In this document: positions 24,150-49,079 of the stretch, piece by piece
Position numbering within the stretch: the stretch's first letter is position 1
Layout of the letters: each line of letters starts with the position of its first letter
From: Nitrospira sp. ND1
Lineage (GTDB): Bacteria > Nitrospirota > Nitrospiria > Nitrospirales > Nitrospiraceae
Direction of reading: 5' to 3'
NCBI RefSeq assembly: GCF_900170025.1
Contig: NZ_FWEX01000006.1
Coordinates: 2,757,236 to 2,821,235, forward strand
DNA: 64,000 nucleotides
Program-made: the position numbers and the translations under genes
Notes under the pieces: model-generated
The model's input: the letters and a program-made list of their open reading frames with translations, nothing else
The model's database searches: none
Told to the model about the DNA's origin: nothing

Positions 24150-24191
24150 TGAGGATCAGGGAGCAGCAATGCCCTGACCCTCAGCGCTTTT
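24150..24191 (+). terminator. Hairpin between convergent cytochrome c and pilU genes
   Basis: TGAGGATCAGGG (24150-24161) pairs with CCCTGACCCTCA (24172-24183) with one mismatch. On the plus strand GCGCTTTTT follows. The right arm includes the pilU stop codon, so the hairpin probably serves the plus-strand cytochrome operon. Confidence 0.5.
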
Positions 24192-25344: not shown

Positions 25345-25400
25345 GAAATGCCTCTTTCCAATGCCGTGGGAAACCCGTTTCGTTTGCGCCGAGTGCCCGT

Positions 25401-33278: not shown

Positions 33279-34403
33279 ATGGGCGCTCTTTCGTTGAAGG
33301 CTTCCTCTTCCTCCTCGCCTCTGGTGGCAGGTCGGGAACGGTCGCTCATTCCCGTTGGAATGAGCACCATTCTTCCTGACGCCGCTCGACGTATCCGACA
33401 GCTCGAGCAGACGCTGCTGGCCGTGCTCGCTCGCGCGGGTTACGAAGAAATCATCCTGCCGATGTTCGAGTATCTGGACGTCCTCGCGCCAGGCCTGGAG
33501 TCCGAACTTATCGAGAAATGTTATCAGCTGGTCGATCGGACGACGGGCCGGTTGATGCTGCTGCGTCCGGATGCCACGGCACAGATTGCCAGAACGGTCG
33601 CCATGGGTATGATGGGCGAGCGGCTTCCGCTGCGGTTGTGTTATCGCACCTCTGTGTTCCGGTATGAGCGTGAGCATGCGGGCCGCGACCGCGAGATTTT
33701 TCAAGTCGGAGCGGAACTCATCGGCGTGGACGGGGTTACGGGAGATGCCGAGGTGTTGACGCTCCTACTGGAATGTTTGGCACAGGTCGGGTTGTCTTCA
33801 TTCAAGGTTGCTGTCGGCCACGTCGGATTTTTTACGGCCCTGCTGGTCAAGGCCGGCTTATCGCAGGACGGCCAGAAGCGTGTGGAGCAGGCTGCCGCGC
33901 GGAAAGACATGCCGCTGCTTGAGGAACTGCTGACGCGGGAGGGCGTGTCCCGATCGACGGGGCGGGTCATTCTTGAAGCGCTGGAACTGTGCGGTGGGCC
34001 TGAGGTCTTGGTGCGCGGGAGAAAGTTGGTGGGGCGCGACCGGACCCTCTTGAGACCACTCGATCGCCTTGCGCAGGTCTATGAGCGATTGGTGTTGCCC
34101 GGGCAGCAGGCGGTGTTGCTCGATTTGGGCGAGTTCCGCGGGTTTGAATATTATGACGGGATAGTCTTCGACGTCTTTGCACCGGGTATCGGGGCGGAGC
34201 TGGGAGGCGGGGGCCGATACGACCATTTGATGGGCCGGTTCGGTCGGACCGCGGCTTCTACCGGGTTTGGTCTCGATGTCGATCGTCTGTTTCGAGCCCT
34301 CGATGCTTCCGGTGTGGTGACGCCGCCTCACTCCGGTCCCTCTACAACCGCTGGCTCCAAGCCGGTTGCGGCAGAACTGCGACGGCGCAGGAGCCGGGTA
34401 TGA
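33279..34403 (+). CDS. hisZ: ATP phosphoribosyltransferase regulatory subunit
   Basis: HisZ is a catalytically inactive HisRS-like protein that forms a complex with short-form HisG and gives histidine feedback control. The 374-residue product has class II synthetase-like motifs: PVGMSTILPDAARR, motif 2-like YRTSVFRYEREHAGRDREIFQVGAELIG, and a C-terminal GGGGRYDHLMGRFG with GFGLDVDRL. It lacks the anticodon-binding domain of true HisRS. Its stop overlaps the dnaB start (ATGA), so the two are translationally linked. hisG is not in the window, but its short form is implied. Confidence 0.92.
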   Translation: MGALSLKASSSSSPLVAGRERSLIPVGMSTILPDAARRIRQLEQTLLAVLARAGYEEIILPMFEYLDVLAPGLESELIEKCYQLVDRTTGRLMLLRPDATAQIARTVAMGMMGERLPLRLCYRTSVFRYEREHAGRDREIFQVGAELIGVDGVTGDAEVLTLLLECLAQVGLSSFKVAVGHVGFFTALLVKAGLSQDGQKRVEQAAARKDMPLLEELLTREGVSRSTGRVILEALELCGGPEVLVRGRKLVGRDRTLLRPLDRLAQVYERLVLPGQQAVLLDLGEFRGFEYYDGIVFDVFAPGIGAELGGGGRYDHLMGRFGRTAASTGFGLDVDRLFRALDASGVVTPPHSGPSTTAGSKPVAAELRRRRSRV

Positions 34404-35755
34404 AGCCGCTCTCCGCGGTTGATCTCACCTCCCCCAAATTGCCGCCACAGAACGTCGAGGCCGAACAGTCGGTGCTCGGCGCGATCTTGTTGGATAACAC
34501 GGCGATGGCCAAGGTGATGGAGCTGCTGACGGACGAGGAGTTTTACCGGACTGCGCATCGCAAGATTTATCAGGCCATGCTGGAGCTGTCCGATCGCGGC
34601 GAAGTCATCGATCAGATTACGCTCACGGAATGCTTGAAGGCGCGCTCTGAGCTCGAAGCGGTCGGAGGATCCGCCTATCTAGCCGAGCTCGTTCAGGTGG
34701 TGCCGACGGCGGCCAATGTCCGCTATCACAGCAAGATCGTTCGGGACAAAGCGCTGTTGCGAGGGCTCATTCAGACCTCGACAGAGGTCGTGACGCGCGG
34801 GTATGACGGGACGGTGGCAGTCGATGAGCTGTTGGATTTTGCCGAGCGTTCGGTCTTCAGCCTTGCTCAGGGAAAGCTGGATCGTTCCTTTACTCCGGTC
34901 AATCAGATCATCAAAGAGAGTCTCGATGTCGTCGACAAGCTGTCCAAGCGCAAGGAACGTGTCACGGGCGTACCGACCGGCTTTATCGATCTGGATGACC
35001 TGACCGCCGGATTACAGCCTTCGGACTTGATCGTCATTGCCGGCCGTCCGAGTATGGGCAAGACCAGTCTGGCGCTTGGGATGGCGCAGCATGCCGCGCT
35101 GCATGCCGGCACCGTCGTCGGCATTTTCAGCCTCGAAATGTCGAAGCCGCAACTCGTGCTCCGCATGTTGAGTTCCGAGGCCCGCGTCGATTCGCATGCG
35201 CTCCGGACCGGTCGGTTGCAAAAGGAAGACTGGTGGCGCCTTGCGGAAGCGGCCGGGAAGCTGGAGCAGGCGCCGATCTATATCGACGACTCCGGCGCCG
35301 TGACGGTGCAGCAGATGCGCGGGAAAGCGAGGCGGCTCAAGGCTGAGCGTGGCCTCGATCTGTTGATTGTCGACTATCTCCAGCTCATGCAAGGGAAGAG
35401 CGACTCCGAGTCACGGCAGCAGGAAATTTCCGACATTTCCCGTTCCTTAAAGACCTTGGCGAAAGAGCTGAATGTGCCGGTCATCGCGCTTTCACAGTTG
35501 AGTCGTGCAGTGGAAGCCCGGAAGCCGCCGGTTCCCATGTTGGCCGATTTGCGGGAAAGCGGCGCGATCGAGCAGGACGCCGATGTCGTGATGTTTATCT
35601 ATCGTGAAGAAGTCTACGAACCGGCGACGGAGAGAAAAGGCATCGCCGAAATTCTGGTCAGTAAGCATCGTAACGGACCGATCGGGAAACGGGACTTATT
35701 CTTTCACGACCGGTTTGCCAAGTTCGAGAATCTCGAGAGTCGCGAGGTCGTTTGA
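34400..35755 (+). CDS. dnaB: Replicative DNA helicase
   Basis: DnaB is the hexameric 5'-3' helicase at the replication fork. The 451-residue product has the N-terminal domain (PPQNVEAEQSVLGAILLD, about 15-115), a linker and the RecA-like motor. Walker A AGRPSMGKTS starts near residue 214, Walker B is LLIVDYLQLM, and the C-terminal segment contains LADLRESGAIEQDADVVMFIYR. No intein is present. The start overlaps the hisZ stop by four bases. This is a housekeeping gene, which argues that the region is core chromosome. Confidence 0.97.
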   Translation: MKPLSAVDLTSPKLPPQNVEAEQSVLGAILLDNTAMAKVMELLTDEEFYRTAHRKIYQAMLELSDRGEVIDQITLTECLKARSELEAVGGSAYLAELVQVVPTAANVRYHSKIVRDKALLRGLIQTSTEVVTRGYDGTVAVDELLDFAERSVFSLAQGKLDRSFTPVNQIIKESLDVVDKLSKRKERVTGVPTGFIDLDDLTAGLQPSDLIVIAGRPSMGKTSLALGMAQHAALHAGTVVGIFSLEMSKPQLVLRMLSSEARVDSHALRTGRLQKEDWWRLAEAAGKLEQAPIYIDDSGAVTVQQMRGKARRLKAERGLDLLIVDYLQLMQGKSDSESRQQEISDISRSLKTLAKELNVPVIALSQLSRAVEARKPPVPMLADLRESGAIEQDADVVMFIYREEVYEPATERKGIAEILVSKHRNGPIGKRDLFFHDRFAKFENLESREVV

Positions 35756-35828: not shown

Positions 35829-37700
35829 ATGATTGTGCAACGATTGTGTGAAGAGTGCCCGCAGCCACCCGCCCGAAGGGGTTCTGCGAATGTCAGAACG
35901 GTAGCTCTTCTACTTGCGGCTATGGCCTGTGTCACCGCCGCCTGCCAGAGCACGCCGCCTGCCCGTCCCGCTCCTGCTGCGGTCCCATCCGCCGTGCCGG
36001 TGGCTCCTCGTGCCATGCCCTCATCCTCAGATTCCCGCGCGTCCTATCACTTTCTCCTCGGGTACCAGGCCGAGTTGGATCAGGAAACGGAACTGGCGAT
36101 CAAGGAATATCAACTCGCGCTGCAAACAGATCCCGCCTCCAATTATCTCAAAGCCAGGCTGGCCGTGCTCTACTTCACCGCGGGGGATGTGCCGTCGGCG
36201 GTACGCTTTGCGGATGAAGTGGCCGACGTGCCGGGGCTGGATGCGCAGATGCTGGGGCAAATCGGCGGCATGTATGCGGCAGCAGGAAAGCCCGACAAGG
36301 CGTTGAGATTGTTCAATCGTGCCATTGAGCAGGAACCTCAGCGTAGCGAGCATTTCTTTGCCAAGGGGCTGTTGCAAGCCAATCAGAAACAATATGTTGA
36401 AGCCGAAGACACGATTCGCGCTGGAATCAAGATCAGCCCGGACTCGGCAGTCGGGTACTACTATTTAGGTCGGATCGGGGTCGAAGCCAGAGATTTTGAC
36501 AAGGCGACGACTCACTTCGAGCAGGCGGTGGCACTGAATCCAGCCTTCGAGCCCGCTTATGTGGCCCTAGGGTCTGTCTATGAAGCCAAGCAGGATCGGG
36601 ACAAGGCGATCGGGATCTATCGTCGCTACCTGCAGGGTGTGAATCCGAAAAATCGTGACATCCGGCATCATCTTATTCGTCTGCAGGTGTCGGCGAAGCA
36701 GTACGACGAAGCCCTGCGTGAATTGCAGGAAATGTTATCTGAAGATCCGTCAGACCTCGATGCTCAGCTTCGGATGGGGCTTGTTTATGGGGAGCAGAAA
36801 GACTACCCCAAAGCCATTCAGCAGTTGAAACAAATCCTCACGGTGCGCCCGACGGAACTGAAAGTCCGTGACTACCTGGGGTATTTGTACGAAGAGACCA
36901 AGGATTACGCCAATGCGATGGAGGCCTATCGTTACAATCTGACGCTGGAGCCTTCGTATTTCGAGGGACATCTGCATTTGGGTGTCCTGCAGTACCGGAC
37001 CAAGCAGTATGCCGAATCCATTCAGCACCTTCGCGAAGCCAGCCGGTTGAATCCCAAGCAGCCGGAGGCCCATATCGTCCTGGGGTTGTCGCACTTTCAA
37101 GTCGAACAGTACGAGCCTTCCCTCCAGGCGTTTCAGGAAGGGATTCGGCACAATCCGGACAATGCGGACCTGCATTTTAATGCGGGAACTGCGTATGACA
37201 AGCTGAATCGATTCGACGATGTGGTGAAGTCGATGCAGACGACGCTCGCCTTGGATCCGCACCACGCCGATGCTATGAACTACCTAGGGTATAGCTATGC
37301 AGAACGCGGCGTGAAGATCGAAGAGGCGATTGCGCTGACCAAGCAGGCCGTCGCACTTCGACCGACCAACGGGTATTACGTCGATAGTCTGGCCTGGGCG
37401 TTCTTCAAGAAGGGCCTGCTGGCTGAAGCGCTGGCGGAGATGAAGCGGGCGGTCGCACTGGTTGGCGACGATCCCGTGATTTATGAACATCTCGGCGAAA
37501 TCTACTTAAAGCAGCAACATCTCTCGGATGGTCGGGAAGCGCTCCTGCATTCGCTGGAACTGGATCCTTCCAATGACAAGCTGATGCAGCGATTCCGTGA
37601 ACTGGGCTTGGGCGATCCAGCCAAAGAAGAACGTATTCGCCAGGCGCTTCGGCGCGTCTCAGATCGCAAGGGTGCCACTCCGGCTCCCGCTCAGCAGTAA
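35829..37700 (+). CDS. Large TPR lipoprotein
   Basis: The 623-residue product has a basic leader of about 25 residues, a hydrophobic segment and a lipobox-like VTAAC, then an Ala/Pro linker and at least 13 tetratricopeptide repeats filling residues 70-600. Examples are AIKEYQLALQTDP, ALRLFNRAIEQEP and FEQAVALNP. Such proteins are scaffolds for protein complexes; in the periplasm they often serve cell-envelope or secretion systems. It follows dnaB after 73 bases on the same strand and precedes the pilin region by about 400 bases. The partner is unknown. Confidence 0.87.
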   Translation: MIVQRLCEECPQPPARRGSANVRTVALLLAAMACVTAACQSTPPARPAPAAVPSAVPVAPRAMPSSSDSRASYHFLLGYQAELDQETELAIKEYQLALQTDPASNYLKARLAVLYFTAGDVPSAVRFADEVADVPGLDAQMLGQIGGMYAAAGKPDKALRLFNRAIEQEPQRSEHFFAKGLLQANQKQYVEAEDTIRAGIKISPDSAVGYYYLGRIGVEARDFDKATTHFEQAVALNPAFEPAYVALGSVYEAKQDRDKAIGIYRRYLQGVNPKNRDIRHHLIRLQVSAKQYDEALRELQEMLSEDPSDLDAQLRMGLVYGEQKDYPKAIQQLKQILTVRPTELKVRDYLGYLYEETKDYANAMEAYRYNLTLEPSYFEGHLHLGVLQYRTKQYAESIQHLREASRLNPKQPEAHIVLGLSHFQVEQYEPSLQAFQEGIRHNPDNADLHFNAGTAYDKLNRFDDVVKSMQTTLALDPHHADAMNYLGYSYAERGVKIEEAIALTKQAVALRPTNGYYVDSLAWAFFKKGLLAEALAEMKRAVALVGDDPVIYEHLGEIYLKQQHLSDGREALLHSLELDPSNDKLMQRFRELGLGDPAKEERIRQALRRVSDRKGATPAPAQQ

Positions 37701-38018: not shown

Positions 38019-38096
38019 TATGGAAGGCCTGGCTGCAGGGCGCGTGTGGCAAGGGAGCATATGAATGGGTGTCCTCAAGATCTGTGATTGCACCTC

Positions 38097-38624
38097 ATGG
38101 TGACTACATCGAAGCAACAAGGGTTCACGCTGATCGAATTGATGGTCGTGGTGGTGATTGTGGGAATTCTCGCTGCCTTTGCCATACCCAACTTTCTTCG
38201 ATACCGGGCGCAGGCGATGCAGGCTGAGGCACGATCGAATTTGGCGGGTATCTTCGTGGCCGAGACCTCGTTCTTCAGTGAGCGGAAAGAATATGGGAAT
38301 TTTACAGATGTGGGCTTTGCCATCGCCGAAGGCGGGACGAACCGCTACACCTATCGATCCGGCCTGGGAATTGGATCCGGGATGGGACCGAACGGGGGCA
38401 ATCTCTGCGGGTCATCCGGTAGCTGTGACACGATTCAGACGGCGTCTCCGATGGCGGGGGCAATGACTTATACGGGAGCGGTTGGTAGCGCGACGACATC
38501 AGCCTCTGGATTTACGGCCACAGCCGCGGCGGATCTTGATGGAGATGCTACGCATGACGGCTGGTATGTGAACGATGCGAAGCAGGGATTGAATGGGGCG
38601 GAGCCCAATGATGTGTCGAGTTAG
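38097..38624 (+). CDS. pilA: Type IV pilin, first copy
   Basis: The 175-residue prepilin has a short basic leader, prepilin peptidase site [10 protein letters not shown] (cleavage between residues 9 and 10) and Glu5 of the mature chain. A hydrophobic assembly helix (VVVVIVGILAAFAIPNFL) follows, then a globular domain with Gly/Ser/Thr-rich loops and a Cys pair (LCGSSGSCD). The chain ends in DGWYVNDAKQGL and an acidic C-terminus. I use ATG 38097; the open frame begins nine bases earlier at a TTG. No strong ribosome site is visible. A paralogue follows 253 bases downstream with its own similar promoter. Confidence 0.93.
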   Translation: MVTTSKQQGFTLIELMVVVVIVGILAAFAIPNFLRYRAQAMQAEARSNLAGIFVAETSFFSERKEYGNFTDVGFAIAEGGTNRYTYRSGLGIGSGMGPNGGNLCGSSGSCDTIQTASPMAGAMTYTGAVGSATTSASGFTATAAADLDGDATHDGWYVNDAKQGLNGAEPNDVSS

Positions 38625-38776: not shown

Positions 38777-38877
38777 ATTCCCAAGATCTGCTAGGCTTGA
38801 AAAAAGCTGTGTCGTACGAAGAGGCAAGAGAGAAGAACGTGTCGGATGAAGTGGCAACAATAGGAAAGGGAGGAAGT

Positions 38878-39411
38878 ATGTTGAAGCAAATCAAGGGGCA
38901 AAAAGGTTTTACGTTGATCGAGTTGATGATCGTTGTGGCGATCATCGGTATCTTGGCGGCGATCGCCATTCCGAACTTCTTGCGCTACCAGGCCAAGTCC
39001 AGACAGTCGGAAGCCAAGACCAACCTGGGCGCGATCTTCGTGGCGGAGACGGCTTATCTCAGCGAAAATTCACGGTATGGAAGCTTCTCTGAGATCGGCT
39101 ATGCCCTTGCCGGATCGACCAACCGATACACCTACCGAAGTCCGTTGGCCGGTGGTAATGCGGCGTCCGGAGGCAATGCGTTCCCGGCCGCCAACTATGA
39201 CCAGATTCCGTGCGGTGCTCCTGCGGGGTGTACAGTTCAGACTGACGCAGCTCCAGCAGTGCCGTCAAACGCCAGCACGACGGCGGGTGCGGTCGGCTTC
39301 ACCGCGTCAGCGGTGGCCAGCATCGACAATGACGCGACCATTGACGGGTGGTCGGTCAATGACGTCAAGGGTGGTTTGACTCAGGCGGTTCCTGACGACG
39401 TGATCAGCTAA
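38878..39411 (+). CDS. pilA: Type IV pilin, second copy
   Basis: The 177-residue prepilin has leader [10 protein letters not shown], cleavage before FTLIELM, mature Glu5 and the helix [17 protein letters not shown]. The globular domain keeps the same framework as the first copy ([29 protein letters not shown]). Its loops are different and more Ala/Pro-rich, and a Cys pair lies in [11 protein letters not shown] 38878 has GGGAGGA upstream; the open frame extends further without a better start. It is followed by a strong terminator. The two copies could be alternative major pilins or a major/minor pair. Confidence 0.94.
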
Positions 39412-39436: not shown

Positions 39437-39468
39437 ACGGGGGAGGAACCACGTTCCTCCCCCGTTTT
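39437..39468 (+). terminator. Strong rho-independent terminator after the pilins
   Basis: A 13-base perfect stem (ACGGGGGAGGAAC with its complement ending at 39465) has a three-base CAC loop and runs into TTTT. It lies 25 bases after the second pilin stop codon and separates the pilin transcripts from the next operon. Confidence 0.9.
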
Positions 39469-39628
39469 CATTCCGGCTGACCTATCGACCAATTCCTCGA
39501 TCAATTCGCCGACAGGCGTTCTTCCCGTTACGGCCTGCCGCGCCACAGTATTCAAATTCACTTTGCCAAATTGGGCTTGTCTGATAAAGCAGGAGATATC
39601 CGCTTCGGCAAGTGACCAAGACATAGCT

Positions 39629-41626
39629 ATGAACATTCTGTCTCCCATTTCGCTGCTGCTGGTCAGCGCACTCGTGATCTTCTCGCCCCTGCAGGAGGGC
39701 GGCACGACTCATCCCGCGCAAATGATCATCAGGCTGTTGATTGTGACGTGGCTGGGAATCGTGCTGGCGGCCGGCATTCGAGCAGGGCGGCTCGCCATTC
39801 CTGTGCTGACGATGAGGTACGTCGTGCTGGCGTTTGTCGGACTGGCTCTAGCGGCGACCATCCTTTCGCCCTACCCTCATCCGAGCCGGCAATGGCTGAT
39901 CATGATCGCAGGGTACGCGACGTTATTCTATTTACTTGTCTCCTTCGTGGACCGGTGGGAGCATATTCGTATGCTGACTCTTGTGATCGTGCTGATGGGC
40001 GTGGGCGAAGCAGGCTGGGCCATCATGCAAGGGTTGGCATGGAATGTTGTGAGACCTGCCGGCACCTTCTTCAACCCCAATTTTCTCGCCGGATATCTCA
40101 CGGTAACCTGGACGATTCTGGTGAGCGGCGCCATCTATGGCTATCGACAGATCCCGGCCTTTTCACGACCGTGGATGTCGCCCGTCCTGTGGTGGCTTGG
40201 GTTTGTCACGGCATTGGGCATGCTGTTCTTGGCGGTGTTGTTCACCCAGTCTCGCGGGGGCATGATCGTATGTCTGGTCGGGACGGGCTTTGTGCTGACA
40301 GCCCGGTACGGTTGGAAATTAGCCGGCAGCTGCGTGGCAGCCGTAGTGTTGCTCGGGCTCTTTGTCCCCACGCCGATCCGTGATCGAGTGTTGACGGAGC
40401 ATCAACAGAATCCTGTTTCTTATGCCCGTTGGCAGATGTGGCAGGGCGCGGTCGCACAGATGGTTGACCATCCGTTTGGGATCGGGTTGGGACTCTATCA
40501 ATACACCTATCCTCTCTATGCGTTTCCGATTGATGGTGAAATTTCCCGGTTTGGAAAAGTAGCACAGACCCCGCACAACGATTATCTCCAAATGGGCGTC
40601 GAGATGGGGCCTGGAGCGATCCTTGTATTCGGGATCGGGGTTGTACTGCTGATCCGCGAACTGAGACAGGTACTTCAGTCGCGACTGCGGCGGTGGCAGC
40701 GAAGTCTCATTGTGGGCATAGGCGGTGGCGTGATGGCGCTCCTGACGCACGCCGCGTTGGATTCGAGTTTGCGCGAGTCGGCCCTCGCGATCATGTTGGC
40801 GCTCTGTAGTGCAATGATTGTGTCGGCTGCCCGGCTCACCCGCAGGGGGGCCGATGCGGTCTATGTCATTCCGATTCATTCACGGTGGACCTGGGGAATC
40901 GGTGTGGCATGCCTGGTATTGGTGGTCGGTGTGGAGGTGACTCGACTGGGGGTGGCCTGGATGAAGTTTGATGCGGCATCTCGTCGAGCCATAGCTGGAG
41001 ACACCGATGCGGCCATCGAAGGATTGAAAGCGGCAGTCTCATTGGATCCAGGCAAGGCGCTGTACCATCACGGCCTGGGATCAGTCTATGCGAGGGCCTT
41101 CGAAGCGTCCCGCGACAAGCAGGCGTTCCAACTGGCCTATGCGGAGTTTAAGCAGGCGATTGAACTGAATCCGCTCGATAGCAGACTGCTTGGCTTACTG
41201 GGGCAACTGTATCTATCGGCGGCGAGAGTCTCACTTTCTCCCGCGTCGCTCGACGACCAACAAAAAGTCTGGTTGCATGCTGCCGTTCAAGTCTATGAAC
41301 GAGCTATCCAACTCTCGCCATTCTCCGCCATGTATCGATACGAACAGGCCCGGCTTTACTGGATGCTCGGAGAGCGGAGCGACGCTGAGCGTCGAGGAAA
41401 AGAGGCAGAAAATCTGGAACCGAATTTTCTGCCTGCCCGCGCGTTATTGGCCCGTTTGTGGATTGAGGTGGGACAGGTCGATCAGGCAAGGGGGCAGGTC
41501 CGGGAAATTCTCGCGCGGCAGGCTCGCTATAAAGAGCGAAGCATGAATAGTCTTGATCATGCGTTTATGAATGTCGATGTCGGCCCTCTTCTTGTCGCAG
41601 TCGGAGAAACGGCGGTCGCGGGATGA
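39629..41626 (+). CDS. O-antigen ligase / O-oligosaccharyltransferase-like protein with TPR domain
   Basis: The product of about 665 residues has some 11 membrane helices. The central Wzy_C/WaaL-type region includes the periplasmic loop motif TRSRGG-like TQSRGGMIV and FGIGLGLYQY...HNDYLQMGVEMG. A C-terminal soluble part has tetratricopeptide repeats (about residues 440-640). The family transfers lipid-linked glycans to lipid A core (WaaL) or to proteins such as pilins (PglL/PilO). Its position right after two pilin genes makes pilin glycosylation an attractive inference. ATG 39629 is used because the frame upstream is not membrane-like. Its stop overlaps the next start (ATGA). Confidence 0.85.
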   Translation: MNILSPISLLLVSALVIFSPLQEGGTTHPAQMIIRLLIVTWLGIVLAAGIRAGRLAIPVLTMRYVVLAFVGLALAATILSPYPHPSRQWLIMIAGYATLFYLLVSFVDRWEHIRMLTLVIVLMGVGEAGWAIMQGLAWNVVRPAGTFFNPNFLAGYLTVTWTILVSGAIYGYRQIPAFSRPWMSPVLWWLGFVTALGMLFLAVLFTQSRGGMIVCLVGTGFVLTARYGWKLAGSCVAAVVLLGLFVPTPIRDRVLTEHQQNPVSYARWQMWQGAVAQMVDHPFGIGLGLYQYTYPLYAFPIDGEISRFGKVAQTPHNDYLQMGVEMGPGAILVFGIGVVLLIRELRQVLQSRLRRWQRSLIVGIGGGVMALLTHAALDSSLRESALAIMLALCSAMIVSAARLTRRGADAVYVIPIHSRWTWGIGVACLVLVVGVEVTRLGVAWMKFDAASRRAIAGDTDAAIEGLKAAVSLDPGKALYHHGLGSVYARAFEASRDKQAFQLAYAEFKQAIELNPLDSRLLGLLGQLYLSAARVSLSPASLDDQQKVWLHAAVQVYERAIQLSPFSAMYRYEQARLYWMLGERSDAERRGKEAENLEPNFLPARALLARLWIEVGQVDQARGQVREILARQARYKERSMNSLDHAFMNVDVGPLLVAVGETAVAG

Positions 41627-42570
41627 ATCTCTTTCAATCCGTATCAAGCCTGAAGCAGGGACTTGCTCAGGTGCTCTTTGGGCTGATGCTCCTTGCAGGT
41701 TCCTCGGTGCTGCTCCATCTCCTGGATGGTCAACGGACTGCGGTTGCGCGAGCCGAGCAGTTGGCTTATCTCCCGAAGGGGGACTATCTGAAATTGGCCG
41801 TGCTTGGATATCGGCAGGTCGTGGCAGACCTGATCTGGCTGCAGGCGGTTCAGCATATCGGTGCAAAGCGTGATACACAGCGTGGATACAGCTGGACCTA
41901 TCATGCCGTGGATGTCCTGACGGACCTGGATCCCACGTTCGTTCCGCCGTACCAGGCTACCGGTCTTTTTCTCGGAGTGTTAGCCGGTCGTCAGGAAGAA
42001 GGCCTGGCAATCCTGAACAAGGGAAGTCGCCACAATCCATTGATTTGGCAACTGCCGTTCCTGGCCGGCTATATCTCCTATTACGAGCGTTGTGATGCGG
42101 CTGCGGCGGGGGAGTATTTTCGAGTGGCGGCGCAGGTTCCCGGCGCCCCTGCCTACCTGCCTCAATTGGCCGCCCGCATGACGGTGGAAAGTGGAGATTC
42201 CACGGCGGCGCTCGAATTCCTGGACCGTTTTTCACGCAGCGTCACGGATGAACGGCTTCGCGAGTCCTTGTTGCGACGAATGAAAGAAATCGTTCAGGAG
42301 CAGGATCTTCGTTTCCTCGAGGCAAGCATCAGACGTTACCGGGCTAGGTATGGACAGGGGCCGGCTAAGCTTGAGGATCTGATGTTGCATGGCATCATTT
42401 CACAGCTACCGGAAGATCCGTTAGGCGGGCATTACGAGATCGACTTTCTGCGTGGGACGGTCAGTGCGTCATCAAAGCGGGAACGGCTTCGTATTCACGA
42501 GAAAGTGGCGTGTCAGGTGGGAGCCGGAGCAAAGACCTGGGCGGGGACGAGTTCAGTCGACACGCAATGA
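41623..42570 (+). CDS. TPR-like membrane protein (PilG position)
   Basis: The 315-residue product has one N-terminal membrane helix (VLFGLMLLAGSSVLLHLL) and a helical repeat domain (residues about 80-260: DLDPTFVPPYQATGLFLG, AILNKGSRHNP, YFRVAAQVPGAP). Its C-terminus (LEDLMLHGIISQLPEDPLGGHYEID) recalls the pseudopilin-type 'PxDPxGxxY' ending. It overlaps the ligase-like gene by four bases and is followed by an ABC ATPase/permease pair. In Myxococcus, pilA is followed by pilG, pilH and pilI, with PilH/PilI an ABC transporter needed for piliation; by position this could be the PilG counterpart. Sequence homology to PilG could not be tested. Confidence 0.78.
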   Translation: MNLFQSVSSLKQGLAQVLFGLMLLAGSSVLLHLLDGQRTAVARAEQLAYLPKGDYLKLAVLGYRQVVADLIWLQAVQHIGAKRDTQRGYSWTYHAVDVLTDLDPTFVPPYQATGLFLGVLAGRQEEGLAILNKGSRHNPLIWQLPFLAGYISYYERCDAAAAGEYFRVAAQVPGAPAYLPQLAARMTVESGDSTAALEFLDRFSRSVTDERLRESLLRRMKEIVQEQDLRFLEASIRRYRARYGQGPAKLEDLMLHGIISQLPEDPLGGHYEIDFLRGTVSASSKRERLRIHEKVACQVGAGAKTWAGTSSVDTQ

Positions 42571-42600: not shown

Positions 42601-43560
42601 GTGGACGATATCGTCACAGAAAATCTGACCAAATCGTACGCATCGGGTTGGCCAGGTCGACCGCCGTTCGTCGCGTTGGATGGCCTCTCCCTGCGCGTCG
42701 GCCGCGGAGAAATATTCGGATTTCTTGGCCCGAACGGGGCTGGAAAAACCACCACCTTGAAGATTTTATTAGGGCTTGTCCGAGCTACGAGCGGGAAAGC
42801 CTTTTTGTTGGGACAACCGGCTGGTGATGTGGCAACACGAGGCCGTATCGGCTTCCTGCCGGAGTCGCCCTACTTTTACGACTATCTGACTGCCGAAGAG
42901 TTTCTCGGGTTCTACGGGCAGTTGGCCGGCCTGGATCGCGCGGCGATCAGTCAGCGGGTGACGGATCTGTTGAAACTCGTCGGGCTTGTGGATGCACGCA
43001 CCAGGCAATTGCGGAAATTCTCCAAGGGCATGCTGCAACGGATCGGACTGGCCCAGGCGCTGATTCACGACCCTGAACTGATCATCCTTGACGAGCCAAT
43101 GACCGGTTTGGATCCGATCGGGAGAAAACAGGTCCGTGATCTGATTTTAAGTCTTCGGGATCAGGGCAAGACGGTCTTTTTCAGCACGCACATTCTGCAT
43201 GACGTCGAGATGATCTGCGATCGTGTCGGGATCGTGCTGAAAGGGCGTCTCTTCGCCAGCGGGCGGGTCGACGAACTGGTACGACAGGACCATACCCACT
43301 CCGTCGAGATCGTCTGTCAGCAGGTCAAGACAGAGGGCAATACGCTCATCCACTCGCTCGCCGCGCGGGTGCTTCAACAGGGAAAGCAATGCCTCATTGT
43401 ATTGCCAAATCCTGATGCGGTGGACGCAATCGTGGGAGAGATTCGTCGCCAGGGAGGACGGCTGCTCTCCGTGACTCCTCATAAGGCGTCGCTGGAGGAT
43501 CTGTTTTTTCAAGAGGCCGCGCGGGCATTGCCGCATATGACCAGTGGGAGGGCGTCCTGA
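42601..43560 (+). CDS. ABC transporter ATPase (PilH/NatA-like)
   Basis: The 319-residue ATPase has Walker A GPNGAGKTTT, Q-loop region GFLPESPYFYDYLTAEE, signature FSKGMLQRIGLAQAL, Walker B LIILDEPMTGLD and switch His in FSTHILHD. An extra 100-residue C-terminal domain is typical of the CcmA/NatA subfamily that works with ABC-2 permeases. It starts with GTG, preceded by GGAGGAG. The permease gene begins two bases after its stop. With the preceding TPR protein it mirrors pilGHI, which in Myxococcus lies next to pilA. Confidence 0.93.
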   Translation: MDDIVTENLTKSYASGWPGRPPFVALDGLSLRVGRGEIFGFLGPNGAGKTTTLKILLGLVRATSGKAFLLGQPAGDVATRGRIGFLPESPYFYDYLTAEEFLGFYGQLAGLDRAAISQRVTDLLKLVGLVDARTRQLRKFSKGMLQRIGLAQALIHDPELIILDEPMTGLDPIGRKQVRDLILSLRDQGKTVFFSTHILHDVEMICDRVGIVLKGRLFASGRVDELVRQDHTHSVEIVCQQVKTEGNTLIHSLAARVLQQGKQCLIVLPNPDAVDAIVGEIRRQGGRLLSVTPHKASLEDLFFQEAARALPHMTSGRAS

Positions 43561-43561
43561 T

Positions 43562-44326
43562 ATGGGTGCGATCGGGGTCATTGCCTTGAATGCGTTCCGT
43601 GAGAGCCTACGGGACAAGATTTTGTACAACCTCGTTCTGTTCGCGGGGTTGCTGATCGGGTTGTCGGTGCTGCTGGCAGACCTTTCCATTACGGAACATC
43701 ACAAAGTAATTACCGACATGGGCCTGGCAGCGATCAACCTGATCGGTGTCATCATCGCCATTTTCGTCGGCATCAGTTTGGTCAATAAGGAAATCGAACG
43801 GCGCACGATCTACACGATCATGGCCCGGCCGATCAGCCGAACGTTTTTTATTCTAGGGAAGTATCTCGGTCTGGCCCTGACGCTGTTCGTCAATATGGCC
43901 ATTATGATGGCCGTATTTCTCGCCACCCTCTGGCTCTATCACGTCCCCATCGAGCGGTCGCTGTTTCAAGCGGTGGAACTGATTTTTGTAGAGATTCTTG
44001 TTGTCACGGCCATCGCCCTCTTTTTTTCGACATTCACCTCCACAACATTGAGCGCCATCTTTACCCTGGGGCTCTATGTCATCGGGCATCTGACGGCGGA
44101 CTTGAGGAGTGTGGTGGCGAATAGTGAGAGCGGAGGAGTGAAGACCGTCGTGGACCTGTTGTATTACCTCTGTCCGAACCTGGAGATGCTCAATATCAAG
44201 GGACAGGCTGCCGTGGGGATTCTCGTGGCACCGGAATATCTATTGCTCTCGTCGCTATACGGAGTGATGTACGCCGGTGTGCTGCTTACCAGTGCATGCC
44301 TGGTGTTCCAAAAACGGGATTTCTGA
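43562..44326 (+). CDS. ABC-2 type permease (PilI/NatB-like)
   Basis: The 254-residue product has about six membrane helices arranged as in ABC-2 permeases. Notable stretches are FRESLRDKILYNLVLF, VGISLVNKEIERRTIYTIMARPISR and ALFFSTFTSTTLSAIFTLGLY. The cytoplasmic coupling segment KEIERRT is typical. The ATG at 43562 follows the ATPase stop with GGGAGGGCG upstream. It forms the membrane part of the transporter with the ATPase at 42601. The substrate is unknown; a link to pilus assembly is inferred from gene order. Confidence 0.91.
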   Translation: MGAIGVIALNAFRESLRDKILYNLVLFAGLLIGLSVLLADLSITEHHKVITDMGLAAINLIGVIIAIFVGISLVNKEIERRTIYTIMARPISRTFFILGKYLGLALTLFVNMAIMMAVFLATLWLYHVPIERSLFQAVELIFVEILVVTAIALFFSTFTSTTLSAIFTLGLYVIGHLTADLRSVVANSESGGVKTVVDLLYYLCPNLEMLNIKGQAAVGILVAPEYLLLSSLYGVMYAGVLLTSACLVFQKRDF

Positions 44327-44423
44327 GCCGAGAGAATTCTCTTCCTGATGGAAGGTCAATCGTTCAGAGCCGGCTGTCAAATTGGATGTAATTGCGCGGC
44401 CGGTAGGAATTGAAGAAAGTCTT

Positions 44424-45233
44424 ATGCAGGCACCATCTGTCCCATTAACGCACGAGACTAAAACGCGCGATGTGTATTGGGAGCACCTATGGGATCTTGT
44501 AGTGATCCTGACCCAGAAGGAAATTAAAGCCCGCTACAAAAATAGCGCACTGGGATATGTGTGGTCTGTTGCCAACCCTCTGCTGTTTGCGGTCATTTAT
44601 TACATCGTGTTTGGGCAGATCATGAAGGTCCCCATCGAGAATTATTCACTGTTTTTGATGGCGGCGCTCTTGCCTTGGCATTGGTTGGCCAACTCCGTCA
44701 TTGCCGCACCCAACGTGTTTCTTGCCAACGCGACTCTGATTAAAAAAGTGCGTTTCCCTCGGAATGTCCTGGTCGTATCCTATGTACTGAATGAGGGCAT
44801 TCACTTCGTCTTATCAATCCCGGTCATTGCTGGTTTCCTGCTGGTGAATCACATGACCCCCACGATGACCTGGCTGACCGGCATTCCGGTTCTGCTCGTA
44901 GCACAATTCCTGATCGTGTATGGCATTGCGATCACGTTGGCGTCTCTAAACCTCTTTTTCAGAGATTTGGAGCGACTGACAGCACTTTTTGTAACGGTGT
45001 TGTTCTTTTTAACTCCGATTACCTATTCGAGTGCGATGGTGCCAGACTCATATCGCACACTCCTGTATGCCAACCCGGTTGCTCCGTTGATAGAGAGTTG
45101 GCGTGAACTATTTATGCACGGACAGCTGAGTTGGCTGGTGGTTGGTACCTGCTATCTCAGTGCGTTTGGCACACTTCTAGTCGGCAGCCTTGTGTATTGG
45201 CGAATGTCGTCCAAGTTTGCCGAGGTGGTATGA
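44424..45233 (+). CDS. wzm: Polysaccharide ABC exporter permease (Wzm/TagG type)
   Basis: This inner-membrane permease exports undecaprenyl-linked polysaccharide. The product of about 269 residues has six membrane helices and the family features KEIKARYKNSALGYVWSVANPLL and VKKVRFPRNVLV-type (LIKKVRFPRN), with the C-terminal FLTPITYSSAMVP and NPVAPLIESWRELF. I use ATG 44424; the open frame reaches a TTG at 44382. Its stop overlaps the ATPase start (ATGA). It opens the polysaccharide locus that runs to 55.2 kb. Confidence 0.92.
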   Translation: MQAPSVPLTHETKTRDVYWEHLWDLVVILTQKEIKARYKNSALGYVWSVANPLLFAVIYYIVFGQIMKVPIENYSLFLMAALLPWHWLANSVIAAPNVFLANATLIKKVRFPRNVLVVSYVLNEGIHFVLSIPVIAGFLLVNHMTPTMTWLTGIPVLLVAQFLIVYGIAITLASLNLFFRDLERLTALFVTVLFFLTPITYSSAMVPDSYRTLLYANPVAPLIESWRELFMHGQLSWLVVGTCYLSAFGTLLVGSLVYWRMSSKFAEVV

Positions 45234-46000
45234 CCGCGATCTGTTTTGACCACGTGTCCAAGTGGTACCCGAGGTACCAATCCTTATCCTATGGAATCAA
45301 ATCCTCTTTGTTGCATTTGTCTGAGACGTTTCGTTCTCTAAAGCGTGAGCGAGTCAGGGTTCTGGAAGATGTGTCGTTCCGAATCGGAAAGGGAGAAACT
45401 GTCGGTCTCATCGGTCCTAATGGCGCAGGCAAGAGCACAAGCCTGGCTTTGATGGCCGGTGTCGTGGAGGCCGAGACAGGGAACGTCGCTGTCGCCGGCC
45501 GTGTCTCCCCCTTGCTTGAACTCGGAGCTGGTTTTCATTTTGATTTGACGGGGGCCGAGAACATTGTCCTGCATGGCGTGCTTCTTGGCCTGACGCGCCG
45601 AGAAGTCTCCTCGAAAATGAAGGCAATCATCGACTTCAGTGAACTGGAGGCCTGTATCCATCATCCGTTGCGTACGTATTCCAGCGGAATGATTGCGCGG
45701 CTCGCATTTGCCATCGCCTCCCATCTTGACCCCGAGATTCTCCTGATTGATGAGATCCTGTCGGTGGGTGACTTGGCATTTCAACTCAAATGCAACGCGA
45801 AGATCGATGAGTTTAAACGACAGCAAGTCACCATGGTGCTTGTTTCGCACGCAATGGATCATGTGCAAAGACTTTGTGATCGAGTCATTTGGTTAGAGAA
45901 GGGGCGAATAGTGGGCGAGGGGGCACCTAGCCTGATTGTGGCTGAGTATGAAAAGTCGGCGCAGTTGAGGCATGTTGAGATTCGCCCCTCTGCTGCCTGA
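45230..46000 (+). CDS. wzt: Polysaccharide ABC exporter ATPase (Wzt/TagH type)
   Basis: The 256-residue ATPase starts FDHVSKWYPRYQ and has Walker A GPNGAGKSTSLALMAG, the family motif VSPLLELGAGFHFDLTGAENI, the signature YSSGMIARLAFAIA and Walker B ILLIDEILSVGD. The protein stops right after the ATPase core, so the C-terminal glycan-binding domain of O9a-type Wzt is missing. Export should therefore not depend on a non-reducing terminal cap bound by Wzt. It overlaps wzm by four bases. Confidence 0.93.
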   Translation: MTAICFDHVSKWYPRYQSLSYGIKSSLLHLSETFRSLKRERVRVLEDVSFRIGKGETVGLIGPNGAGKSTSLALMAGVVEAETGNVAVAGRVSPLLELGAGFHFDLTGAENIVLHGVLLGLTRREVSSKMKAIIDFSELEACIHHPLRTYSSGMIARLAFAIASHLDPEILLIDEILSVGDLAFQLKCNAKIDEFKRQQVTMVLVSHAMDHVQRLCDRVIWLEKGRIVGEGAPSLIVAEYEKSAQLRHVEIRPSAA

Positions 46001-46116: not shown

Positions 46117-47730
46117 ATGGCTTCAATACCGCGTATCGATCAAAACAAGATTGCCGACGTTTCTGAAGATCGCCTCTCCCACCCATACACCTGCGAGTAC
46201 TACAAGTCCAGTCTTGGGCCTGTCCCGTATAGCCGCTATGAAGGGAAATGGCTGCAATTTTTTGGTTTGGTTGCGGATCATATCGTTAAGCAAATTAGAC
46301 CTCGGAAAGTCTTGGACGCCGGGTGCGCGAAAGGGTTTCTGGTTGAGGCGCTTCGAGATCGAGGGGTTGAGGCGTACGGAATTGATCTATCCGAGTATGC
46401 GATTAGTGAAGTGCGACGGGATATCAGACCCTATTGCCGAGTGGCTTCGTTAGTTGATCCGATTCATGAGCGGTTTGACCTTATCGTGTGCATTGAAGTC
46501 CTCGAACATATTCCGGAAGAGATCGCTCCGCGAGTCATTGCGAACCTCTGTCGAAGCACAGACGATATCCTGTTCTCCTCGACTCCCGATGACTTTGCCG
46601 AACCCACGCATGTGAATGTGCGGCTGCGATCCTATTGGAATGCCCTATTTTCAGAGCAAGGGTTCGATTTAGACGTTGAGTTCGATGCGTCCCGTATCGC
46701 CCCGCATGCGATGCGATTTGTCAAAAGACCCGTGCGCTGTTGCGTGATCGATGCGTTGCTGAAACAACGCGAGCAATTACGGCACACATTCGAGCGCACC
46801 GATGAAGAGCAGCGGAAATTGATTCAGGAGTTGGAACGCCGTTTGGAAAAAATCGAACAATCGGTCGGCTGGAAGGCAGTTATTCTTTTAAAACGGCTTC
46901 GTGAGAGAGTGTGCCCTCTTCATAGCGGGAGGCAATCGGTCTATTTGGCGCTCCGATCGACGCTCCTCACACTCATGAACGGGGAGTGGCGTTCGCTTCT
47001 GAATGGTTCGCCTCAAGCCGGTCAGTCCTCAACCATCGAGTCTAATGCGGCAGCCGCAAAACCGGCGCCAATTCCAATCTCGCCAGAATCCGCCTTGGCC
47101 CACTCGCTACTGGATGGATTGAAAGGTCTCGAGATTGGGCCGGCGACTCACAATCCGTTCGGACTGAATACTCGGAATGTTGAATTGCCTGCGGCGCATG
47201 AATTCTATGCTGAGGAACAGCGGCGCCTTTCCGGTCTCGAACCACCACGGGTCGATCTGTGGGCTGCCGCCGACAATATCCCCGTCCCAAATCAGAGTGA
47301 AGGATTTATTCTCACCAGCCATATTCTCGAGCATTTGCCCAACGTCGTTGGGGCATTGATGGAATGGGACCGCATCGTCATCGATGGCGGATATGTGTTC
47401 ATGATCGTTCCTCACAAGTGGGCATTTGCGCCTGATGCGAGCCGAGAACTGACTTCCTTCGAGCATTTTATCGACGACTATGTTCAGAAAGCCTCGCTTG
47501 AGAGTCATTCGCTTGAAGGGGTGCCGGGCGGGAAAATGGGACACTATCACACATTTACACCTGACTCGGTATTACAAGTCGTTGAGTGGATGTGCCGCAA
47601 CAAACTCTGCGATTGGACGCTTGTCGCGCGTGAGGATATCGATACCAAAGTGGGAAACGGATTTACCCTGGCGTTTATGGTACGCCACCAAGACCGAGTG
47701 GGTTTCCGTGACGGAGAGGCGTTATCGTGA
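46117..47730 (+). CDS. Two-domain SAM-dependent methyltransferase
   Basis: The 537-residue product has an N-terminal class I methyltransferase (VLDAGCAKGFLVEAL, GIDLSEYAI, VCIEVLEHIPEE, about residues 50-200). A coiled-coil and basic linker follows (about 215-330). The C-terminal domain has its own LEIGPATHNPF, a TSHILEHLPN motif and VIDGGYVFMIVPH, another methyltransferase-like fold. It lies inside the polysaccharide locus and is followed by a glycosyltransferase gene with a four-base overlap (GTGA). Methylation of sugars in the exported glycan is the likely role; the coiled coil between the domains could set spacing as in chain-length-controlling methyltransferases. Confidence 0.85.
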   Translation: MASIPRIDQNKIADVSEDRLSHPYTCEYYKSSLGPVPYSRYEGKWLQFFGLVADHIVKQIRPRKVLDAGCAKGFLVEALRDRGVEAYGIDLSEYAISEVRRDIRPYCRVASLVDPIHERFDLIVCIEVLEHIPEEIAPRVIANLCRSTDDILFSSTPDDFAEPTHVNVRLRSYWNALFSEQGFDLDVEFDASRIAPHAMRFVKRPVRCCVIDALLKQREQLRHTFERTDEEQRKLIQELERRLEKIEQSVGWKAVILLKRLRERVCPLHSGRQSVYLALRSTLLTLMNGEWRSLLNGSPQAGQSSTIESNAAAAKPAPIPISPESALAHSLLDGLKGLEIGPATHNPFGLNTRNVELPAAHEFYAEEQRRLSGLEPPRVDLWAAADNIPVPNQSEGFILTSHILEHLPNVVGALMEWDRIVIDGGYVFMIVPHKWAFAPDASRELTSFEHFIDDYVQKASLESHSLEGVPGGKMGHYHTFTPDSVLQVVEWMCRNKLCDWTLVAREDIDTKVGNGFTLAFMVRHQDRVGFRDGEALS

Positions 47731-49079
47731 GTAAGGTGCTCCTCATCAGCAATGATGTCATCGGCATGCAGATGGCTGGACCCGGTATTCGGACCTGGGA
47801 GCTCGCAAAGCTGCTTGCGACTGAGCACACGGTGACGTTATTAACTCCAACCCGAACCGATCTTCAACATCCGAGAATATCCACGCAGGTGTCGACGCAG
47901 GATTGCGTGCGAGCCTGTGCCGACATGCATGACGTCGTGATTGGCCAAGGACAAATACTCAGTCGATATCCATTCTTGCTGGGCCATTCGATTGTAAAAG
48001 TCGTCGATTTATACGATCCGTCGCCGGTCGGATACTTAGAGACAACTCAGCCTCATACGATCAAGGGTCAGCTGGAAAGTCACCATGCGTTGGTCCGGGA
48101 GCATTACAATTATTTGCGTGCCGGTGATGTCTTTCTCTGCGCAAGCGAGAGGCAATGGGATTTTTGGGCCGGCATGCTGATGGCGGCCGGAAGAATTAAT
48201 CCAGTCGTCTATCGAAGCGATCGGATGCTTCGTAGCCTGTTGATAGTGGCGCCTTTCGGTGTTCCTGCTCGGGCTCCTGGGCATCGGCGGCGAGTTCTAA
48301 AAGGTGTGTGGCCGGGAATCGATCCTGATGATGTCGTCCTGTTGTGGGGAGGAGGACTCTGGGAATGGTTTGATCCCATGATGGCAGTGGAGGCGATGAG
48401 CATCGTCGGTCGCCGGCGAACCGACATCAAGCTGTTCTTTATGGGAGTCAAGCGACCGAATGCCAGCGTGACGACCTCTCATACTGCCGATCAAACCATC
48501 GCGTTAGCCGAACAGTTAGGCGTTGCGAATCGTCTGGTGTTTTTCAACGATTGGGTGGCATACGAGGATAGGGAAAATTTTCTGCTGGAAGCCGATCTGG
48601 GATTGAATATCCATCGGGACAACCTGGAGACTCGATTTTCGTTTCGGACACGCATGATGGATTACTTCTGGGCAGGACTTCCCATCATTACTACAGAAGG
48701 CGATCCGCTGAGTGACCTGGTGAAGCAAAACCAGCTTGGGTTGACCGTGCCTTGCGGAGATGCCGAGGCGCTTGCTCATGCGATTCTGCGCGCAGCAGAT
48801 GACCAGGCAACCAGGCAAACGTGGAAACTCAATTGCCTCGCGACAGCGAAAGAGTTTTCTTGGGACCGCGTATTTGAACCCGTCGTCGCCTGGTGTCGTT
48901 CACCGATCCAGGCACGAGATAAAGAATACACGGACGTATGGAATTCCTGTGTGGGCGACTCCGGAAGCTGGCCGAAGCATGCGTGGGAGTATTACCTGCA
49001 ACGAGCCCTTCATCATTACCGTGTGACTGGAATGAGAGGTCTCGCGACTCGTGTCATTTCATGGTCGTGTGGAAGATGA
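47727..49079 (+). CDS. Glycosyltransferase (GT-B fold)
   Basis: The 450-residue product has two Rossmann-like halves. The N-terminal LLISNDVIGMQMAGPGIRTWELAKLL is typical of GT-B enzymes, and the C-terminal half has VLLWGGGLWEWFDPMMAVEA, NRLVFFNDWVAYEDR, ADLGLNIHRDN and FRTRMMDYFWAGLPIITTEGD. The start is GTG, overlapping the stop of the double methyltransferase by four bases. It probably adds a sugar to the lipid-linked glycan on the cytoplasmic face. Donor and acceptor are not predictable. A 260-base gap follows, so the next genes may have their own promoter. Confidence 0.87.
   Translation: MSKVLLISNDVIGMQMAGPGIRTWELAKLLATEHTVTLLTPTRTDLQHPRISTQVSTQDCVRACADMHDVVIGQGQILSRYPFLLGHSIVKVVDLYDPSPVGYLETTQPHTIKGQLESHHALVREHYNYLRAGDVFLCASERQWDFWAGMLMAAGRINPVVYRSDRMLRSLLIVAPFGVPARAPGHRRRVLKGVWPGIDPDDVVLLWGGGLWEWFDPMMAVEAMSIVGRRRTDIKLFFMGVKRPNASVTTSHTADQTIALAEQLGVANRLVFFNDWVAYEDRENFLLEADLGLNIHRDNLETRFSFRTRMMDYFWAGLPIITTEGDPLSDLVKQNQLGLTVPCGDAEALAHAILRAADDQATRQTWKLNCLATAKEFSWDRVFEPVVAWCRSPIQARDKEYTDVWNSCVGDSGSWPKHAWEYYLQRALHHYRVTGMRGLATRVISWSCGR

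Follow-up and report, generated by a model that had tools for sequence, protein, structure and literature searches.

What is an O-antigen-ligase-like protein doing directly behind two type IV pilin genes? This question is raised by the gene at 39629-41626 (+) in a stretch of 64,000 nucleotides from Nitrospira sp. ND1 (contig NZ_FWEX01000006.1; G000:C6:2757236-2821235), referred to below as the window, and its product is referred to as the ligase. Nitrospira are key nitrifiers, and their pili seem little studied. Taken together, the domain content, predicted fold, conserved residues and gene order indicate that the ligase is probably a pilin-dedicated O-oligosaccharyltransferase that works like TfpO of Pseudomonas, and that it stands outside the TfpO/TfpM, PglL and WaaL classes. 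A new variant beside these three classes is the best-supported reading of the sequence data, and the ligase together with three sugar-making genes of the same cluster suggests a dedicated kit for the glycosylation of type IV pili. No description of pilin glycosylation in Nitrospira was found by title or abstract start among the matches listed, and a search for an O-antigen ligase with a TPR domain in pilin glycosylation likewise returned no description by title or abstract start, only an S-layer review being matched; most subscription journals lay outside both searches. If the reading is true, the scheme of swappable pilin-glycosylation cassettes known from Pseudomonas would extend to a distant phylum, a testable reason would exist for the joint travel of pilin types and surface-sugar genes, and the periplasmic TPR domain that is part of the ligase would allow a role in acceptor choice to be tested directly.

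The ligase and its predicted fold

The open reading frame starts with ATG (an earlier in-frame TTG lies at 39563) and encodes 665 amino acids. The Wzy_C domain (PF04932) was detected by Pfam over residues 196-334 with an E-value of 4e-19 and 69.3 bits, against a curated cut-off of 31.7, and all 51 of the 51 relatives match the family at E <= 1, which places the protein in this superfamily. PF07963 was detected in both upstream pilins, and the original prediction of an O-antigen ligase-like protein directly downstream of two pilins was thus borne out. TPR models from Pfam cover residues ~449-632.

The AlphaFold2 model, calculated from 51 input sequences, reached a mean pLDDT of 88.8 and a pTM of 0.86. 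Its top structure in VIA-align was the O-antigen ligase WaaL (7tpg_B; Z 27.7, 372 residues, root-mean-square deviation 4.1, 16 % identity), and the second-best row that was not a TPR protein, among the rows listed, had a Z of 15.1. No PglL structure occurred among these listed rows, which makes the comparison uninformative on the PglL fold. Foldseek also placed WaaL 7tpg_B first. TPR proteins dominated the matches when the full-length sequence was compared with solved structures; the ligase part was then used alone, and its sequence profile had 7tpg as the sole match at E <= 0.01 (2.3e-10). Across the 51 sequences, R209 and R267 never vary and H316 is kept in at least 90 %; the regions around all three align with 7tpg, so that a WaaL-type fold is combined with the conserved R, R and H. 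The HN motif of H316 also occurs at H338 of E. coli WaaL, and R215, R288 and H338 are named as important in E. coli WaaL by PMC3643930.

Thirteen membrane helices were read off the predicted model. The mean number of lysine and arginine residues was 1.0-2.6 in the six cytoplasmic inter-helix loops and 0-0.3 in three short periplasmic loops; the pattern is imperfect, because the two periplasmic loops that bear the conserved FFNPN and SRG motifs carry 1.5 and 1.1. The model and the loop charges fit a cytoplasmic N-terminus, a periplasmic position of the large loop with H316 and a periplasmic TPR domain behind helix 13. The added C-terminal TPR domain of the original prediction was therefore recovered, with a predicted periplasmic location, and it may bind the acceptor as that prediction suggested.

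A conserved place between pilin and sugar genes

The locus around the ligase comprises the following features.

34400-35755 (+): dnaB, a conserved gene at the left border, included in the tree below; 55-100 % identity where found
35829-37700 (+): TPR-repeat protein with a lipoprotein-like N-terminus, conserved upstream neighbour, kept in the Nitrospirota loci with the ligase and in most of those lacking it
38088-38624 (+): type IV pilin 1, tail EPNDVSS (N_methyl PF07963, E 4.8e-10)
38878-39411 (+): type IV pilin 2, tail VPDDVIS (PF07963, E 3.8e-10); the open reading frame opens with TTG at 38797, and the ATG before MLKQ is at 38878
39437-39465 (+): strong hairpin followed by a T-rich run, terminator-like, between pilin 2 and the ligase (fold z -6.2)
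39629-41626 (+): the ligase, an O-antigen-ligase-fold protein with a predicted periplasmic TPR domain (PF04932; AlphaFold2 pLDDT 88.8; WaaL 7tpg_B Z 27.7)
41623-42570 (+): pilG-like gene, 315 amino acids, overlapping the ligase stop codon; profile A2 matches beside pilins in two phyla; named by gene order
42601-43560 (+): pilH-like ABC transporter ATPase (PF00005, E 3.5e-28)
43544-44326 (+): pilI-like ABC-2 permease (PF12679, E 5.3e-11)
44382-45233 (+): Wzm-like polysaccharide ABC permease, start of the variable cluster (PF01061; NF050109 below cut-off)
45230-46000 (+): Wzt-like ATPase (PF00005; NF010065 and NF050108 below cut-off); the open reading frame opens with TTG at 45131, and the ATG before TAIC is at 45230
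46117-47730 (+): methyltransferase, variable cluster (PF13489)
47727-49079 (+): glycosyltransferase, variable cluster (PF13692)
49339-50478 (+): glycosyltransferase, variable cluster (PF13692)
50475-51533 (+): WecA/MraY-family polyprenyl-phosphate sugar-1-phosphate transferase, first gene of the conserved trio (PF00953, E 6.5e-35)
51530-52840 (+): FAD amine-oxidase-family protein, PRK07208-like and weakly UDP-Galp-mutase-like, second gene of the trio (PF01593), called the flavoprotein below
52845-54044 (+): GT4-type glycosyltransferase, third gene of the trio (PF00534; 43 % identical to the glycosyltransferase of locus L253)
54066-55184 (+): DegT aminotransferase, right border (PF01041); directly behind pilI in 8 of 15 Nitrospiraceae loci lacking the ligase

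The best NCBIfam match of both pilins was typeIV_PilA_Myxo (NF041775; E 2.3e-27 and 9.9e-33), below its cut-off. The names pilG, pilH and pilI were given because of the order behind a Myxococcus-type pilin and the ABC-transporter type; the pilG-like protein itself had no Pfam family over cut-off. A standard terminator scan of the window reported none, the hairpin included. The ligase had been described as lying upstream of a glycan locus, and the Wzm/Wzt-like pair, methyltransferase, glycosyltransferases and WecA-like gene are indeed present, although the three pilGHI-like genes, which that description did not mention, lie between.

Orthologs of the ligase with at least 244 bits were found in the window genome and 16 others among 148 genomes of the phylum, the next match having 53.5 bits. 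All 16 of these orthologs, with identities of 28-94 %, lie between a pilin and pilG-pilH-pilI. A scan of named genomes, which partly overlap the phylum sample, gave 59 loci of the Nitrospirota type; L081 and L102 are pieces of one genome, and two loci with Nitrosospira in the title are placed among Nitrospira by the tree of DnaB and TPR protein described below. The chromosome of N. defluvii also has the locus (L069). A pilin ends within 500 nucleotides upstream of the ligase in 53 of the 54 testable loci (the exception is L121, at 584 nucleotides), and pilG starts within 250 nucleotides downstream in 55 of 56 (the exception is L107, where the ligase is in two pieces). This placement is far beyond chance, since it is kept by the 16 orthologs at such divergence and by nearly all testable named loci. 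Pilin 1 of L044/L080, pilin 2 of L083 and the ligase of L107 show a two-piece reading or an unrelated tail, with intact copies in other genomes; damage to these individual copies, or an assembly error, is possible. Genome G022, which also has a pilin-linked ligase, carries another Wzy_C gene (573 amino acids, weak TPR match) immediately after pilI, at L052:4410-6128 (-).

The three genes of the trio stand side by side in the window. Their relatives were searched in 41 genomes, namely 17 Nitrospirota and three others with the ligase and 21 lacking it (L265-L271 were left out). A WecA-like relative of at least 267 bits occurs in 17/17 Nitrospirota and 3/3 other genomes with the ligase, the G149 match containing one stop, and the 21 ligase-less genomes gave no match above 141 bits. 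A flavoprotein relative of at least 410 bits is present in all 17 Nitrospirota ligase genomes and a relative in two of the three others (none in the fragmented G149), with nothing above 151 bits in the 21. The flavoprotein shares a contig with the ligase in 17/17 genomes at a distance of ~9-31 kb, and the trio therefore closes the variable cluster that opens behind pilI.

Outside Nitrospirota, a pilin lies directly upstream of the ligase in L127 (Deltaproteobacteria) and L128 (Schekmanbacteria), both of which are cut by contig ends. In the phylum group of a Desulfobulbaceae record (G153), pilG profile matches occur in 72 of 247 genomes, some of them weak, and two of the 32 loci examined, L250 and L253, carry the ligase between pilin and pilG (151 and 165 bits); a weak Wzy_C match beside pilI in L248 (46 bits) was left out of the count. 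The order in L253 is pilin, ligase, pilG, pilH, pilI, WecA-like, flavoprotein, glycosyltransferase, PilM and PilP-like, and in L250 it is two pilins, ligase, pilG, pilH, pilI, WecA-like, flavoprotein, glycosyltransferase and prepilin peptidase. The window flavoprotein is 33 % identical to that of L253 and 38 % to that of L250. No Wzm/Wzt match was found around the two ligases, within stretches of 16.5 and 19.5 kb, and the other 30 pilG loci of the group, several of them short, showed no WecA or flavoprotein match. In Myxococcus the gene order is pilA-pilG-pilH-pilI-pilD. A Myxo-type pilin with pilGHI-like genes behind it is common to both arrangements, and the L250 cluster also ends in a prepilin peptidase, whereas the Nitrospira cluster contains the ligase and the trio; we know of neither in the Myxococcus cluster. 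The xap cluster of Geobacter is a lead only.

In a Wzy_C tree of 75 proteins (including 14 Nitrospirota ligases, L127, L250, L253, four PglL controls and E. coli WaaL), L127, L250 and L253 group with the 14 Nitrospirota ligases and L126 (SH-aLRT 94, not starred). This group is apart from the four PglL controls (96, starred), E. coli WaaL and the other paralogs; the grouping is provisional because the branches are long.

Exchange of the block within Nitrospiraceae

The same locus occurs without the ligase in 15 Nitrospiraceae genomes from two genera. These loci have dnaB (where covered), the TPR protein, a different and longer pilin (188-200 amino acids when mature, with a tail containing [DE]C in 10/15) and pilG-pilH-pilI. 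Over the 4.0-7.9 kb examined at the 15 loci, no match was found to any gene of the window's Wzm-to-GT4 segment. At all 16 ligase loci one or more similar genes occur within 6.9 kb, and 12 of these loci have Wzm no more than 3.5 kb away. DegT follows ~100-130 nucleotides behind the pilI match in L229, L231, L232 and L235-L239, all ligase-less, and likely marks the right end of an exchanged block.

A tree of DnaB and the TPR protein from 75 loci (loci without a long dnaB match were excluded) requires six changes in ligase presence, all forced by starred branches, compared with a mean of 16.5 after shuffling. The pilin type switches with the ligase in five of six independent pairs and never against it, the sixth pair showing no difference (p 0.0625; L114, in which no full pilin was recognised, was excluded). 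Within Nitrospiraceae, joint changes of pilin type, ligase and glycan cluster thus number about five. In the pair L105/L237, of which one side lacks the ligase, hisZ, dnaB and the TPR protein are 98.5, 99.8 and 94.8 % identical, and pilG, pilH and pilI are 46, 53 and 50 % identical; the near-identical left flank beside divergent pilGHI therefore probably reflects a recent exchange of the block.

Class, acceptor and competing explanations

By analogy, the nearest known scheme is the pilin-accessory cassette of P. aeruginosa, in which, according to PMC11841053, groups I and IV have a glycosyltransferase gene and group II has no accessory gene. TfpO/PilO of the group I pilins and TfpM are described in PMC11841053 and PMC12645811 as Wzy_C-family ligases directly downstream of their pilin, without PglL_A or Wzy_C_2, that accompany some pilin types but not others at one locus. 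The Nitrospira ligase resembles them in these features, and its position beside a cognate pilin holds for 53/54 testable named loci and 16/16 orthologs. It differs from TfpO/TfpM in an extra membrane helix and a predicted periplasmic TPR domain, in the presence of pilG-pilH-pilI and the WecA-flavoprotein-glycosyltransferase trio in the same cluster, and in that a C-terminal Ser/Thr of the pilin is not general. To our knowledge, TfpO has neither the extra helix nor a TPR domain.

TfpO uses the C-terminal Ser of its pilin as acceptor, and TfpM a C-terminal Ser or Thr. Both window pilins end in Ser. Across the 54 ligase loci with a recognised pilin (L081, L094, L099, L114, L115 and L118 were excluded from tail and Thr counts), 18 have no pilin ending in Ser/Thr, and 7 have no pilin with Ser/Thr among its last five residues, so a C-terminal acceptor was rejected as a general rule. 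At two internal Thr columns (T75 and T132 in mature pilin 2, corresponding to T76 and T131 in mature pilin 1), Ser/Thr is present in 79/87 and 87/87 ligase-linked pilins, compared with 0/15 and 1/15 unlinked pilins and 1/8 and 3/8 pilins of family f13; they are candidate acceptor sites only, because structural conservation would look the same. An [ND]DV pilin tail was considered as a ligase signature and was ruled out by four ligase-less f13 genomes that have it. The hairpin behind the pilin, considered as a cassette mark following a report on Pseudomonas, occurs in 26/35 ligase loci, where mononucleotide shuffles predict 4.6, and likewise in 10/21 ligase-less loci, where 2.9 are expected; it therefore belongs to the pilin.

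We infer the catalytic steps, the acceptor, the donor and the role of the TPR domain as follows. The WecA-like enzyme would put the first sugar phosphate on a polyprenyl carrier; the glycan would be built or modified by the GT4 enzyme and the flavoprotein, with the variable cluster contributing in Nitrospira; and a putative exporter, Wzm-Wzt in most Nitrospira, would move it to the periplasmic face. The 13-helix ligase would then transfer it, through the WaaL-type R209, R267 and H316, onto a Ser/Thr of a pilin still held in the membrane, with the pilin's globular domain and the TPR domain both on the periplasmic side, and the glycosylated pilin would be assembled into the pilus. According to PMC12645811, the reducing-end sugar of TfpO and PglL donors is an acetamido sugar or, for PglL, also galactose; an acetamido sugar would suit a WecA-type start if the WecA-like enzyme uses N-acetylhexosamine.

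Several findings weigh against a pilin-dedicated enzyme. The support is computational throughout, consisting of the domain, predicted fold, residues, gene order and co-occurrence with the trio and the pilin type. In Nitrospiraceae, the pilin-to-DegT block seems to be swapped as a single unit, so the joint switching of pilin, ligase and trio, which reaches p 0.0625 with five of six pairs, can be linkage and partly hitchhiking; because the genes are adjacent, co-switching points to a shared block and by itself is no proof of shared function. Most pilG loci outside the ligase lineage have no adjoining ligase (2/32 in the other phylum have one), none was found at the 7/7 more distant Nitrospirota pilG loci (L265-L271), and L126, a tree neighbour of the pilin-linked ligases, has no pilin linkage. 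The same NDV-ending pilins also occur in the four f13 genomes that lack the ligase. PglL_A (PF15864) and Wzy_C_2 gave no match to the window protein at E <= 1 in Pfam, and the profile of the ligase matched four PglL proteins at E 7.7e-14 and four of the genome's own WaaL-like paralogs plus E. coli WaaL at 2.3e-19. Independent evidence for a shared function comes from the compact clusters L250 and L253, since they belong to another phylum.

The most serious alternative, which we consider unlikely, is that the ligase is the cell's WaaL, joining the polysaccharide of the ABC-exporter cluster to lipid A-core and standing beside pilins only because a glycan locus was inserted there. The best solved fold (Z 27.7) and the high profile similarity to WaaL-like paralogs favour this role, as do the joint presence or absence of ligase and trio in the tested Nitrospirota genomes and the distribution of Wzm, which lies within 3.5 kb of pilI in 12/16 ligase loci and was found at none of the 15 ligase-less Nitrospiraceae loci. 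In L250 and L253, however, the ligase adjoins type IV pilus genes with no exporter found in the stretches given above. The sole KDO transferase match of the window genome (C6:3236355) lies ~439 kb from the ligase (C6:2796864), while one of five other Wzy_C matches in that genome, of which one is below cut-off, lies ~22 kb from the KDO transferase match; clustering with lipid A-core genes, which had been named as a finding that would overturn a pilin role, was thus not observed. By comparison, waaL of E. coli adjoins waaC. WaaL has 12 membrane helices, whereas the Nitrospira ligase has 13 by the model, together with its TPR domain.

Part of the sequence signature of PglL is shared by the ligase. 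Judged by motif position, N151 of FFNPN corresponds to N180 of QPN, H374 to H400, and the G-x-G of G316 and G318 has an equivalent, whereas N149 replaces Q178, D378 replaces E404 and P406 has no equivalent; Q178, N180, G316, G318, H400, E404 and P406 are the PglL-specific residues listed in PMC3643930. The resulting pair, GTFFNPN (GxxxQ[PR]N in the controls) and HAxxD (HSxxE[YF]P), occurs in 6/6 ligases, 4/4 PglL_A-bearing controls and 1/30 other Nitrospiraceae Wzy_C proteins (L315), and is absent from E. coli WaaL; its absence from E. coli WaaL and 29 of the 30 also speaks against the WaaL role. Among 12 further Wzy_C relatives from other Nitrospirota, two have both motifs and eight have the second alone or with the first. 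Sixteen of 46 Wzy_C matches, having no locus, were left out of the motif test. PglL_A and Wzy_C_2 were not among the 25 of 66 families listed for the 51 relatives. The ligase fits neither class cleanly, because it shares PglL motifs and has the closer profile match to WaaL-like proteins. The comparison of PglL and WaaL signatures proposed earlier therefore recovered part of the PglL motifs, while the PglL domains were absent and the profile comparison, no closer to PglL than to WaaL-like paralogs, failed to separate the two. Overall, the pilus-linked role in the original prediction was supported by the pilin-ligase-pilG order across Nitrospirota and, outside the phylum, in L250 and L253, whereas PglL-type membership was not, given the missing domains and the partial motif set. 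The ligase is assigned outside the known classes because it has no PglL_A or Wzy_C_2, its pilins have no general C-terminal Ser/Thr, and lipid A-core genes are far away.

A general PglL-like enzyme that glycosylates many envelope proteins, with the pilin among its substrates, has little probability in our judgement. The ligase shares the Wzy_C fold with PglL/PglS of Neisseria and Acinetobacter and, in part, the two motifs, which match positions of the four controls, and pilin linkage is compatible with a general enzyme because 21 of 31 PglL candidates lie beside pilins (PMC3643930); the absent PF15864 and Wzy_C_2 matches and the changed or missing Q178, E404 and P406 set the ligase apart, and linkage is nearly invariant here, in contrast to PglL enzymes, for which PMC12645811 states that tight pilin linkage is not widely seen. 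PF04932 includes polymerases as well as ligases, and Wzm/Wzt-type export needs no Wzy. A Wzy-type polymerase joining repeat units of the adjacent cluster, although consistent with this family and with the nearby WecA-like initiator, is comparably improbable, since the nearby exporter is of the Wzm/Wzt type, the compact loci show one glycosyltransferase with no flippase recognised beside them, and the closest solved fold is a WaaL ligase.

Returning to the pilin-dedicated enzyme, a broader interpretation can be offered tentatively, and we hold it to be rather doubtful as a whole. A new class of pilin-glycosylation system in at least two phyla would consist of a TPR-bearing ligase and a WecA-flavoprotein-glycosyltransferase core encoded with pilus assembly genes. 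The compact form would attach a short glycan. Nitrospira would have gained, between pilI and WecA, an inserted O-antigen-like cassette that varies among strains, so that its pili would be 'serotyped' and a single block of pilin, ligase, pilGHI alleles and sugar genes would be swapped, perhaps driven by phage pressure. For the compact loci, near which no other exporter was seen, it is even conceivable that the pilH-pilI ABC transporter flips the glycan.

Some minor observations concern the remaining parts of the window. The C-terminal part of the pilG-like profile (~211-264) gave weak matches to many short open reading frames elsewhere in the genomes, mostly of 110-250 amino acids, which we take to resemble GspG-type pseudopilins, and the pilG-like gene may have a pseudopilin-like C-terminal domain. 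The segment 9664-21608 encodes an ABC exporter, an HlyD-like adaptor and a protein of 2446 amino acids that has a lipase-like N-terminus and many GGxGxDxLxGG-type repeats, presumably type I secretion machinery together with a large RTX protein. Two adjoining genes for PilT-like ATPases, recognised by eye, lie at 24181-26462 (-), apart from the pilin locus.

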